Source: Alphaproteobacteria bacterium
GTDB taxonomy: Bacteria > Pseudomonadota > Alphaproteobacteria > Bin95
NCBI GenBank assembly: GCA_022827685.1
Contig: JAJEIH010000139.1
Span: 1 to 57,148, forward strand
Length of the DNA stretch: 57,148 bases
Reading direction: 5' to 3'
Shown: positions 3,281 through 15,377 of the stretch, piece after piece
Layout: the number at the start of each line of letters is the position of its first letter
Numbering within the stretch: the first letter of the stretch is position 1
Translations under genes and position numbers: made by a program
Notes under the pieces: generated by a model
The model's database searches: none
What the model saw: the letters and a program-made list of their open reading frames with translations, nothing else
What the model was told of the DNA's origin: nothing

Positions 3281-5431
3281 ATGCCGATGCCCGAAGCGCG
3301 CGCCCTCTGCTCTTCCTGCGACATTTACTGCCAGGTCATGGTCGAGACCGACGCCGGGGGCGCGGTCCGGGTCAAGGCGATCGACCCGAGGCCGGGCAGG
3401 GCCAACATCTGCATGAAAGGCGTGCATGCGCCCGCGGGCTTCGCCCACCCCGACCGGGTGTTGCATCCTCTCCGCCGCAAGGGGCCGCGCGGCTCGGGGG
3501 AATGGGAACGGGTCGAATGGGACGAGGCGCTCGACGACATCGCCGAACGCCTTCACCGGGTCGTGGACCGCTACGGGCCGGAAGGGTTTGCGGTCTCGAC
3601 AAGCTCCTGGAACACGCAGACCGACAATGGCATGTGCCGGCGCTTCATGAACCTTGTCGGCTCGCCGAACTGGATTTCCGGTGTCGCGCTCTGCGCCGGC
3701 AACACGGCCGCCGTCAACCGGCTGGTCTATGGCTGGTTCCCCTATCCCGACTTCACCAAGACGCAGTGCATCGTGCTGTTCGGGCACAACCCGAAGCCGC
3801 ATTCCTGGACGCCGGAATACAACGCCATCCGCCGCGCGCAGGAGCGCGGCGCGAAGCTGATCGTGCTCGACCCGCGCCGGTCGGAGAATGCCGAGCTCGC
3901 GGATATCTGGCTGCCGCTCAAGGTCGGCACGGACGCCGCCATGTGTTTCGGGTGGCTCAAGGTCATCATGGACGAGGGGCTCTGGGACCGGGATTTCGTC
4001 AAGCGCTGGACAGCGGGCTTCGATGAACTCCGCGCCCGCGTGGACGAGTTTCCGCTGGACCGGGTCGCGGAGATCACCGGCGTGGCGCCGGAGCGGATCG
4101 CCGAAGCCGCGCGCCTCTATGCGCAGTCGGGCCCGGCGGTGATCCCCTGGTCTCCGATCACCGACCAGCAGCGCAACTCGACCTCCGCCATCCGGCTGCA
4201 AGCGATCCTGCGCGCCGTCTGCGGCAATCTCGACGTTCCGGGCGGCGACGTGCTGCACGGCTTCCACCCGCGCATCGTGCCGGAGACCGACCTGGAGTTT
4301 CACGACGCGCTGCCGCAGGCGCAGAAGGCCAAGCAGCTGGGGTCCGACACGCACCCCGTGTTCACCTATCGCGGCGCCGCGCCCCTGGAAGAGCCGACCT
4401 TGCGCGTCTGGGGGCGGCGATACGCCAATCTCGTCTCCGGCTGCTACATGGCGACGCCCTCGGCGGTCTTCCGCGCCATGGCGGACGGCGAGCCCTATCC
4501 GGTCAAGGCCTTTTTCGCGCTCGGCAACAACACGCTGCTGAGCTTCGCCAACATGCAGCTGATCCAGAGGGCGCTCCTGAACCAGGACCTGCTCGTCACG
4601 TTCGAGCACATGAAGACGCCGACGGCCGCGCTCTCCGACTACATCCTGCCGGGCGATGCCTGGACGGAACGCAAGGCGCTGGCGGACGGCTTCGGCTGGA
4701 CCGCCATCTGCCGCAGCTCGCAGCAGGCGACGGAGCCTCCGGGAGAGGCGCGCAGCGTTTACGATTTCTGGCGCGGCCTGGCGGTGCGGTTCGGCCTCGG
4801 CAACCATTTCCCGTGGGAAACGGCGGACGCCGTGCTGGACCATCGCGTGGCGGGCCTCGGCATGGATTTCGACAGCTTCGCGCGGGAGCACGCCGCGCAT
4901 ACGGACGGCCTCCGGTTCCGGAAATACGAAAAGACGGGCTTCGCGACGCCCTCCGGCAAGGTCGAGCTTTCCTCCTCCGTGCTGGCCGAATTCGGCTTCG
5001 ACCCCTTGCCCTACTGGCGCGAGGAGCCGGCGGCGTCGGACGACATGCCGCTTCGCCTCTTCACGGGCCTGCGCGAAGACGCCTATTTCCAGACCGGCCA
5101 CCGCCATATCGCGGCGCTTCGCGCCCGCGCTCCCGAACCGCTGCTCTTCCTGCATCCGGAAGACGCGGAGGAAGCCGGCATCGCGGACGGCCAGGCCGCC
5201 ATCGCCGAAACGGCGCAGGGACAGGTTCGGATGAAGGCCGCCGTCCGCGGCGACATGCAGAGAGGCCTGGTGCGGATACCGCATGGCTGGTGGCTGCCCG
5301 AGGTCGGGCTGGAGAGCGCCTGGGAAATGGCCGACGCCCAGCTCTGCCCCGACGACGAGGACTTCCTCGACCGCGAACAGGGCATCCCGCACTTCAAGGG
5401 CATCCCCTGCCGGGTAGCGCCGGCGGCTTAG
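3281..5431 (+). CDS. Molybdopterin-dependent oxidoreductase with N-terminal [4Fe-4S] site
   Basis: Molybdenum/tungsten-bis-MGD enzyme of the DMSO reductase family, 716 aa, catalytic subunit. Cys10, Cys13, Cys17 and Cys44 form a C-x2-C-x3-C-x26-C iron-sulfur motif. Cys138 in SGVALCAGN sits where formate dehydrogenase H has its Sec/Cys metal ligand. The middle domain has FGHNPKPHSW and LIVLDPRRSENAELADIW (MGD binding), and the C-terminal molydopterin-dinucleotide-binding domain spans about 600-716 (HPEDAEEAGIADGQ). No Tat signal is visible, so a cytoplasmic location is likely. No electron-transfer or membrane-anchor subunit lies nearby, which is common for this stand-alone subgroup often called formate dehydrogenase-like. 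The substrate is unknown. Confidence 0.88.
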   Translation: MPMPEARALCSSCDIYCQVMVETDAGGAVRVKAIDPRPGRANICMKGVHAPAGFAHPDRVLHPLRRKGPRGSGEWERVEWDEALDDIAERLHRVVDRYGPEGFAVSTSSWNTQTDNGMCRRFMNLVGSPNWISGVALCAGNTAAVNRLVYGWFPYPDFTKTQCIVLFGHNPKPHSWTPEYNAIRRAQERGAKLIVLDPRRSENAELADIWLPLKVGTDAAMCFGWLKVIMDEGLWDRDFVKRWTAGFDELRARVDEFPLDRVAEITGVAPERIAEAARLYAQSGPAVIPWSPITDQQRNSTSAIRLQAILRAVCGNLDVPGGDVLHGFHPRIVPETDLEFHDALPQAQKAKQLGSDTHPVFTYRGAAPLEEPTLRVWGRRYANLVSGCYMATPSAVFRAMADGEPYPVKAFFALGNNTLLSFANMQLIQRALLNQDLLVTFEHMKTPTAALSDYILPGDAWTERKALADGFGWTAICRSSQQATEPPGEARSVYDFWRGLAVRFGLGNHFPWETADAVLDHRVAGLGMDFDSFAREHAAHTDGLRFRKYEKTGFATPSGKVELSSSVLAEFGFDPLPYWREEPAASDDMPLRLFTGLREDAYFQTGHRHIAALRARAPEPLLFLHPEDAEEAGIADGQAAIAETAQGQVRMKAAVRGDMQRGLVRIPHGWWLPEVGLESAWEMADAQLCPDDEDFLDREQGIPHFKGIPCRVAPAA

Positions 5432-11193: not shown

Positions 11194-12300
11194 TCAGGCC
11201 CGCCCGTCCAGCGCCCCGCAATGCTGCGAGAAGGCCGGCAGGACATCCCCGGCGAGGCGGCGCATGGACGCGCGGCAGAGTTCCGGGTCCTCCCAGTCAT
11301 GCATCCCGATGAGCAGCGTGCCGAACGCGCCGATCTCCTCGCGCAGCGCGACCAGCCGGTCGAGCACGGTGCGGGCCGTGCCGCAGATCGGGATTTCCGC
11401 GACCGCCTCCTCGACGTCGAGCAGCGCGTTCAGCTCTTCGGCCGGCGCGTCCGCAATCGCCTTCACCTCCGGCAACCGGCGCAGGCTGCGCAGGTAGCGG
11501 AAGTAGAAATGGAACAGCCCGTCCGGGTCGCCGAGAATGTCGTTCGCCTGGCTCTCGCTTTCCGTCACCAGCAGGTTGCGCGCCACCCGCCAGACCGACG
11601 GGTCCGCCGGCCGGCTCGCCTTCTCGGCCGCCTCAGCGTAGAGCGGCCAGTGGGTCGCCACGTCGCGCGAGGGGATGAAGTTCGCCGAGATGGGTATCCA
11701 GCCGCGCCCGCCGCAGACGCCCGCCGACCCCGAGTTCGCCGAGACCATCGCCATGGCGATGGGCGGGTGCGGGTCCTGGTAGGGCTTGGCGATGAGGCCG
11801 ACGCCGTGGCGCGGATAGACCGCCTCGTCGATGGCGATGTCCCACCACGGGTTCTCGAAGCGGTAAGGCGGCTCGCCGCGCCAGAGCTCCAGCACGATGT
11901 CGATGGCGGCGAGCATCATGCGCTGGCGCTCCGCCGGGTCGTGGTGGCCATACATCTCGGCGTCGCTGACGAGGCCGCCCGGCCCGATGCCGAACAGGAA
12001 CCGGCCTTCGGAGAGCTGGTCGAACAGGGCGACATGGCTCGCGACCGTCACCGGATGATGGTGGGGGATGTTGATGACGCCGGTGCCGAAGCGGATCGAG
12101 CGCGTCTCGCGGATGAGCGTCGCGAGGAAGATCAGCGGCGAGGTGATCTGCTCGACCTTGGAGGTGAAATGCTCGCCGATCCAGGCCTCGGAATAGCCGA
12201 GCCGGTCCGCCAGCAGGATCGCCTCGCGGTCCTCTTCCAGGGTCTGCAGGAACGGCTTTTCGGGCCGATGCAGGGGCATCGAGAACAGGCCGAGCTTCAT
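11194..12300 (-). CDS. LLM class flavin-dependent oxidoreductase (limonene monooxygenase-like)
   Basis: Bacterial luciferase-like monooxygenase, 368 aa, in the length range of LimB/alkanal-type enzymes that need a separate flavin reductase. Landmarks: MKLGLFSMPLHRP at the N-terminus, GYSEAWIGEHFTSKVEQ near 35, IRFGTGVINIPHHHPV near 68, LFDQLSEGRFLFGIGPGG near 92, and a C-terminal TLLIGMHDWEDPELCRASM helix close to the active-site mouth. It sits between the PhyH genes and the broken acyl-CoA dehydrogenase, all on the minus strand with gaps of 81 and 52 bp. No flavin reductase is nearby. Substrate unknown. Confidence 0.87.
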   Translation of the reverse strand: MKLGLFSMPLHRPEKPFLQTLEEDREAILLADRLGYSEAWIGEHFTSKVEQITSPLIFLATLIRETRSIRFGTGVINIPHHHPVTVASHVALFDQLSEGRFLFGIGPGGLVSDAEMYGHHDPAERQRMMLAAIDIVLELWRGEPPYRFENPWWDIAIDEAVYPRHGVGLIAKPYQDPHPPIAMAMVSANSGSAGVCGGRGWIPISANFIPSRDVATHWPLYAEAAEKASRPADPSVWRVARNLLVTESESQANDILGDPDGLFHFYFRYLRSLRRLPEVKAIADAPAEELNALLDVEEAVAEIPICGTARTVLDRLVALREEIGAFGTLLIGMHDWEDPELCRASMRRLAGDVLPAFSQHCGALDGRA

Positions 12301-12352
12301 GCCGCGCTTCCTCTCCGGCGCCGGGACGGGGGCAGGCTACAGCACCTCCGCC

Positions 12353-13393
12353 TCAGGGGGAATCGCCGCCGCGCGCCTCGCGCCCGAGCGCGGCCAGGCG
12401 GAGGGCGTGGACCCTGCCGGCGACGTTCTCCGAGGCCTTCATGTCGGCGATCAGCGCCCCCCGCGCCGGGTCTTCCGGCAGGTCCAGCGCCTCATAGGCG
12501 GCGAGGAAATCGCGCTGCTGCTGCTTCGCCGCCAGCAGGCGGGCGTCGTCCCTGCCGGGGAAGGCGGCCAGCGCCTCGAAGGACACCAGCCTTGCCGCGA
12601 GTCCGCCGAGCGCCTCATCCCCGAGCCCGGCGTCGGCCGCGTCGTCGAGCAGCGCCTCCATCGCGCCCCGCTGCGAGCCGAGCTTCAGCAGGTCCTCGAC
12701 ATTGCGCAGCGGCTTCGCGAAGGCGCGCCATATGTCGATGTCCGGGCCGAGCTCCGCCGAGGCGGGCAGGCGGACATCGCGGAGGTCGAGGCCGCAATGG
12801 CCGGTCGGGCGCAGGAACTCGACAGCGCCGGCCTCCGTGCGCGCAAGGCCGGGCGCGTCCGCCGGCACCAGGAAGGCGCCGAACCGCTTGCGCCCGCCGC
12901 TCTCGCCCTTGACCGCCACCACGATGAAGAGGCCGGCCGCGGGGCCGTTGGTGATCCAGGCCTTCTCGCCGTCGAGCCGCCAGCCGCCCCCCGGCAACTC
13001 TTCGGCGCGCGCCTTCAGATATTTGGGATGCGCGCCGGCCCCGGGCTCCGAGATCGCCGCCGCCAGCGTGGTTTCGCCCCTCGCCAGGCGCGGCAGCCAT
13101 TCCCGCTTCTGCGCCTCGTCGCCGAGGCGGGCGAGCGCGAAATGCGAGAGCGTGCAGTGAACCTTCCAGGCGAGCATGGCGCCGAGGCTGCGGCCGTGGC
13201 GCACCATGTCCCGGCAATCCTCCGCAAGCCGTTCGAGGTCCCGGCCGCGGCCGCCATATTCCCCGGGAACGGTGAGGCCGAGCAGGCCCGCTTCGGCGAG
13301 GCCCCGTCAGAGGTCGGCCGGATAGTCCCGGCGGGAACGCAGGTCCTCGCGGCCGCGGATCAGGCGGGCGGCCGCCGCCGCGACATCGTTCAC
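12353..13393 (-). pseudogene. Acyl-CoA dehydrogenase family gene interrupted by an in-frame TGA
   Basis: The reading frame starts at GTG 13393, overlapping the cupin stop codon (GTGA). After 28 codons it meets TGA at 13309-13307, then continues in the same frame with RGLAEAGLLGLTVPGEYGG, the hallmark N-terminal segment of acyl-CoA dehydrogenases, and runs to 12353. The TGA sits exactly where family members commonly have Trp (ADL[W]RGLAEAGL), so one G-to-A change of TGG explains it. The middle part keeps AAAISEPGAGAHP and AWITNGPAAGLFIVVA (FAD/substrate domain). The C-terminal third is atypical and the total of 346 codons is a little short. The longest intact product would start at ATG 13207 and lack part of the N-terminal domain. 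A sequencing error cannot be excluded. Confidence 0.72.
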
Positions 13394-13809
13394 CGGCGGT
13401 GGATCGGGTAGCCGTGCTCGTCTGACGCGCCGTCGCGGTAGTTCACGATCCGCTTCGGGCTGAGGTGGATGCCCATGAGCCGCATCGGCTTCTCGCCCAC
13501 GGCGGCGAAGTTGTGCCGGCGCTCCGGGGGCAGGGCGACCGTGTCGCCGGCTTCGAGGCGGGTGCGCTCGTCCTCCGCGCCCTCCAGCCAGACATCGCAG
13601 CTGCCTTCGAGGATGTGCAGGATTTCCACATAGGGATGCGCGTGCAGCCCCGGCTCGTAGCCGGGCTCGGCGGTCTGGATGCCGACCCGGATGGGGAACC
13701 CGGCCTCCTCGCCAAGCAGGATCGGGTTGTAGAAGGAATCGGCCGCGAAGGGCACGGTATCTGTCTCGGAAAGACGGACGATCTTCGCTTCGGTCATGGT
13801 CTCGGACAT
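13390..13809 (-). CDS. Cupin-domain protein
   Basis: Small single-domain cupin, 139 aa. Cupin motif 1 reads EPGLHAHPYVEILHILEGS (two His and a Glu as metal ligands), and motif 2 includes GDTVALPPERRHNFAAVG with the third His. It may be a metal-dependent oxygenase/isomerase or only a small-molecule sensor. ATG 13809 (MSETMTEAK) is preferred because GAGGA lies about nine bases upstream; an earlier ATG at 13842 would add an Arg-rich tail without family counterpart. The stop codon overlaps the GTG start of the acyl-CoA dehydrogenase frame (GTGA), implying coupled translation and a common pathway with that now broken gene. Confidence 0.8.
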   Translation of the reverse strand: MSETMTEAKIVRLSETDTVPFAADSFYNPILLGEEAGFPIRVGIQTAEPGYEPGLHAHPYVEILHILEGSCDVWLEGAEDERTRLEAGDTVALPPERRHNFAAVGEKPMRLMGIHLSPKRIVNYRDGASDEHGYPIHRR

Positions 13810-13878
13810 GGGGCGCATCCTCCTCGGGCGCCATTCTCGCAAAAGCCCCGCCCGGCGTCGAGGCGTTGCGGCCCGGGT

Positions 13879-15071: not shown

Positions 15072-15377
15072 CTACGCAGCCGATTGGCGGGGCGTCACGC
15101 GCGCCGCGATCTCCCGGCCCGACTCGATTTCCGCCCGGCGAAGCTCCCAGGTCTTTTGCAGGTTCATCCATAGTTGCGGCGTGGTGCCGAAATACCGCGC
15201 GAGCCTGAGCGCCGTGTCCGCGCTCACGCCTCTCTCGCCGTTCAGGACCGCCGTTACCCGGTTCGCCGGAACGCCGAGCGCCTTCGCCAGCCCATTGGCC
15301 GAAAGGCCGAGTTCCTCGAGTTCCTCGCGCAGGACTTCGCCCGGATGGACCGGCCGCATTCCGTTCCTCGCATTCAT
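15072..15377 (-). CDS. higA: HigA-type XRE antitoxin (orphan)
   Basis: 101 aa, HTH-XRE antitoxin/autorepressor of the HigA addiction-module family: PVHPGEVLREELEELGLSAN at the start, helix-turn-helix LAKALGVPANRVTAVLNGER (about 31-50), the family signature SADTALRLARYFGTTPQLWM and a C-terminal helix. Normally HigA follows higB on the same strand. Here only a decayed higB end remains upstream (15390-15480), so this antitoxin has no local toxin. Domesticated HigA proteins may persist as transcriptional regulators or as anti-addiction antidotes. ATG 15377 lies 12 bp after the remnant's stop codon, which keeps the usual higB-higA spacing. Confidence 0.88.
   Translation of the reverse strand: MNARNGMRPVHPGEVLREELEELGLSANGLAKALGVPANRVTAVLNGERGVSADTALRLARYFGTTPQLWMNLQKTWELRRAEIESGREIAARVTPRQSAA

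Follow-up and report, generated by a model that had tools for sequence, protein, structure and literature searches.

A probable recent nonsense pseudogene of a short acyl-CoA dehydrogenase in an alphaproteobacterial lineage

The locus and its interrupted reading frame

The window analysed here, a stretch of DNA of 57,148 nt, is one contig of a draft alphaproteobacterial genome of 4.3 Mb in 167 contigs. It carries on its minus strand a cupin gene, an acyl-CoA dehydrogenase frame interrupted by a stop codon and a gene for a luciferase-like monooxygenase (Table 1). The three form a conserved block of 2.7 kb (window 11194-13876), within which gene order is kept and the flanks of which are rearranged between congeners. 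The GTG start of the dehydrogenase (13393-13391) and the TGA stop of the cupin gene (13392-13390) share the overlap GTGA, as the first-pass annotation had pointed out. This overlap is also kept in four congeners (G003 to G006). The stop falls at codon 29 in the context CTC TGA CGG, base 13307 of the plus strand being T, and after the TGA at 13309-13307 the same frame goes on as RGLAEAGLLGLTVPGEYGG. That the two parts share one frame with no indel between them had been claimed from the first, and reading the frame directly bears it out.

Table 1. Position of the features discussed in the text (window coordinates).
Feature	Position	Strand	Remark
Cupin gene (PF07883), upstream	13390..13809	-	intact, constrained
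Acyl-CoA dehydrogenase frame, read through	13393-12353	-	GTG 13393 to TGA 12355-12353
5' fragment, 28 codons from the GTG start, then the stop	13307..13393	-	GTGA overlap with cupin gene
In-frame TGA, codon 29	13307..13309	-	TGG (Trp) in four congeneric orthologues
3' remnant, remaining acyl-CoA dehydrogenase frame	12353..13306	-	ends at TGA 12355-12353
First in-frame start after the TGA (ATG, residue 63)	13205..13207	-	possible but unlikely restart
Lineage-specific early C-terminal TGA	12353..12355	-	alignment with congeners
Luciferase-like monooxygenase gene (PF00296), downstream	11194..12300	-	intact, constrained

Read through the stop, the frame encodes a protein of about 346 residues that belongs to the acyl-CoA dehydrogenase superfamily, with both the N-terminal domain (PF02771, residues 9-107, E 7.8e-18) and the middle domain (PF02770, residues 111-206, E 6.8e-16) recognised by Pfam. 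Its closest solved relatives in the PDB are isovaleryl-CoA and glutaryl-CoA dehydrogenases. With sequence profiles only, no match of the read-through protein to the C-terminal family (PF00441 or equivalent) was obtained at E 0.001. The dehydrogenase of the genus is short and has no recognisable C-terminal acyl-CoA dehydrogenase domain; because full-length congeners measure 356 aa, the short C-terminal part is best read as a trait of the group, separate from the lesion.

Elsewhere in the window, a formate-dehydrogenase-like frame free of in-frame stops occupies positions 3281-5431, with a match to TIGR01591 (3305-5302) that lies below the cut-off of this model. A small protein with a helix-turn-helix domain (PF01381), perhaps an antitoxin of the HigA type, is encoded at 15072-15377.

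Comparison with congeners

The comparison set comprised this genome and seven others of the genus, and the dehydrogenase gene was found in six of these eight, this one among them. The codon is covered in four of the others (G003, G004, G005 and G006), all of which present TGG and an open frame. In the fifth congener with the gene, G002, a contig end cuts off the part containing the codon, and in G007, whose contig breaks off within the adjacent monooxygenase gene, the absence of the dehydrogenase is not callable as a loss. No orthologue outside the genus was retrieved at E 1e-60 from the family's six further genomes. Among related records, those with a name are alphaproteobacterial assemblies from metagenomes.

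The first-pass annotation had guessed that relatives commonly have tryptophan at this position, and had proposed a single TGG-to-TGA change; the four intact orthologues with TGG bear out the guess and confirm the proposal. A TGA conserved among relatives, which it had named as an argument against simple decay, was looked for and seen in none of them. Because all four congeners that cover the codon have TGG and an intact frame, the comparison demonstrates, at the level of sequence, a Trp-to-stop change in this lineage. A chance effect of open frames would not explain the stop, since the interruption is a single one in an otherwise conserved frame with 88-92% amino-acid identity to congeners.

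The 3' end of the frame is altered as well. The codon aligned to the ancestral stop, still the stop of the congeners, is TGC here, 9 nt are missing upstream of it, and a new TGA closes the frame several codons before the ancestral position. Because C-termini can drift in working genes, these changes count as no more than supporting evidence for decay.

Constraint on the dehydrogenase

The changes unique to this genome amount, in the dehydrogenase, to 14 replacement and 8 silent, close to the neutral expectation of about 2.25 to 1, vs 51 replacement and 74 silent in three congeners taken together, a difference of modest significance (one-sided Fisher p = 0.04). The replacement to silent ratios of the neighbour genes in the same genome are 4:14 and 2:5. 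Similarly, a codon branch model on a six-species tree gave an omega of 0.197 on this branch vs 0.074 elsewhere, with a p-value that is again modest (p = 0.025), five branches having been examined and the branch of this lineage fixed in advance. None of the other four branches tested displayed a rise in omega for the dehydrogenase, and the branch omega of the two neighbouring genes was not raised (0.046 vs 0.035, p = 0.52). The dehydrogenase is under weaker constraint than its neighbours in all species.

An omega of 1 over the entire branch was rejected (p = 0.003), and decay is thus either recent or partial. If the dN/dS of the branch mixes constraint (0.074) and neutrality (1), roughly its last 13% would have been unconstrained. 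The gene combines two traits of a nonsense pseudogene, namely a premature stop where relatives are intact and a relaxed constraint in the lineage that bears this stop, the latter with modest significance.

Decoding of TGA in this genome

Termination at TGA is normal in this genome. TGA is the commonest stop codon and ends 159 of 249 long genes sampled over about 454 kb of the genome, RF2 is present, and the focal context is ordinary, TGA followed by C ending 55 of the 159 sampled TGA genes. The tRNA-Trp found reads CCA at the anticodon, the stem of which has 5 bp, and carries A9 and G24; its sequence does not vary among the eight genomes of the genus. Neither a UCA anticodon nor a known suppressor variant of tRNA-Trp was found, about three quarters of 42 tRNA genes having been read by anticodon. 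A codon-usage scan of these 454 kb, in which the focal site scored about zero, failed to tell interrupted genes from the ends of genes that simply lie in tandem, and yielded no rate of in-frame stops.

The genome contains SelA, SelB and tRNA-Sec; selA adjoins selB, and was assigned by its position before selB and by its sequence. The selB/selA region lies at L120 827-4059 (G000:C112) and tRNA-Sec at L111 1501-1595 (G000:C91). Formate dehydrogenase families were searched as positive controls for selenocysteine; the formate-dehydrogenase-like genes found contain no in-frame TGA.

Interpretation

We consider it probable that the interrupted frame is a real and recent nonsense pseudogene. The set of cupin, short acyl-CoA dehydrogenase and luciferase-like monooxygenase recurs in species of this alphaproteobacterial genus, and in this lineage a tryptophan codon early in the dehydrogenase has turned into TGA. 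Ribosomes restarting at GTG 13393 after the cupin gene would then make 28 residues and stop, and no full-length protein is expected, the next in-frame start being too distant for synthesis of the enzyme to resume. From the sequence we infer that the protein may be absent and its function lost.

Other readings have to be weighed against such a pseudogene. The stop could be a consensus base error, or a base of a minor strain, in a gene that is intact in the organism; one base accounts for the stop, the draft is fragmented in 167 contigs and the congeners come from metagenomes. However, the replacement rate is raised in the dehydrogenase and not in its neighbours, and several lineage-specific changes have accumulated at the C-terminus, which a single miscalled base would not explain, and we regard this reading as unlikely. 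The 3' part might also still yield a truncated protein of 284 residues, begun at ATG 13207. An SD-like GGAGG at 13219-13223, 11 nt upstream of this ATG and absent from the four congeners compared, speaks for such a restart, as does a branch omega that remains below 1. On the contrary, the fragment would lack most of the N-terminal domain, its PF02771 match shrinking to profile positions 78-113 (E 2.8e-5), and five of eight replacements unique to this genome fall after residue 63. In the acyl-CoA dehydrogenase superfamily, the N-terminal domain forms part of the site for substrate and flavin. A functional restart thus appears very unlikely.

Direct tests speak against decoding of the TGA as sense. 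Bacterial selenoproteins read UGA as selenocysteine by means of SelB and a SECIS element, and the machinery described above would permit it here, but relatives have tryptophan and not cysteine at the position. The strand following the TGA folds no better than shuffled sequences (z +1.07 and +0.82), hence with no SECIS-like fold, and matches none of the Rfam SECIS models. We consider selenocysteine insertion extremely improbable. Programmed or leaky read-through as tryptophan, giving enough full-length enzyme, would fit the tryptophan of relatives through decoding by tRNA-Trp, and variants of this tRNA that read through UGA are known in bacteria (PMC13092985). Yet the tRNA-Trp of this genome matches none of those variants and does not differ from that of its congeners, RF2 and an ordinary TGA-C context stand against it, the TGA is not conserved in relatives, and constraint on the gene has fallen; we therefore judge sufficient read-through highly improbable. 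It is equally improbable that read-through reaches a useful level in this single lineage, with UGA serving as a tryptophan codon inside one metabolic gene under the standard code and with an unmodified tRNA-Trp. Among the three options initially offered by the first-pass annotation, the fresh pseudogene is thus favoured by the intact orthologues and the raised omega, recoding is strongly disfavoured, and a lone base error moderately so.

A recent nonsense pseudogene at this locus would show how gene loss usually begins, beside sister species that keep the gene. It would also clear up a locus liable to be taken for recoding, with little wider consequence. In annotation, the frame would be better marked as a pseudogene, pending reads, than as a dehydrogenase of 284 aa.

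Comparison with known systems

This genome shares with those encoding bacterial selenoproteins the presence of the selenocysteine machinery. The locus itself differs from them by the tryptophan of its relatives and by the lack of a SECIS-like fold after the TGA, and the acyl-CoA dehydrogenase family is not known for selenocysteine. A parallel in codon position is the read-through of UGA by variants of tRNA-Trp with anticodon CCA (4-bp anticodon stem, G24A, A9C; PMC13092985), since here too a UGA stands at a tryptophan position. Unlike in that system, the tRNA is free of these variations and is the same as in species with an intact gene, and UGA is the main stop codon. The interrupted dehydrogenase resembles the nonsense pseudogenes of decaying symbionts such as Sodalis (PMC7067036) in combining a single stop, a recognisable gene, intact relatives and relaxed constraint. 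It differs from those of decaying symbiont genomes in being one case, with intact and constrained neighbours and no evident genome-wide decay.
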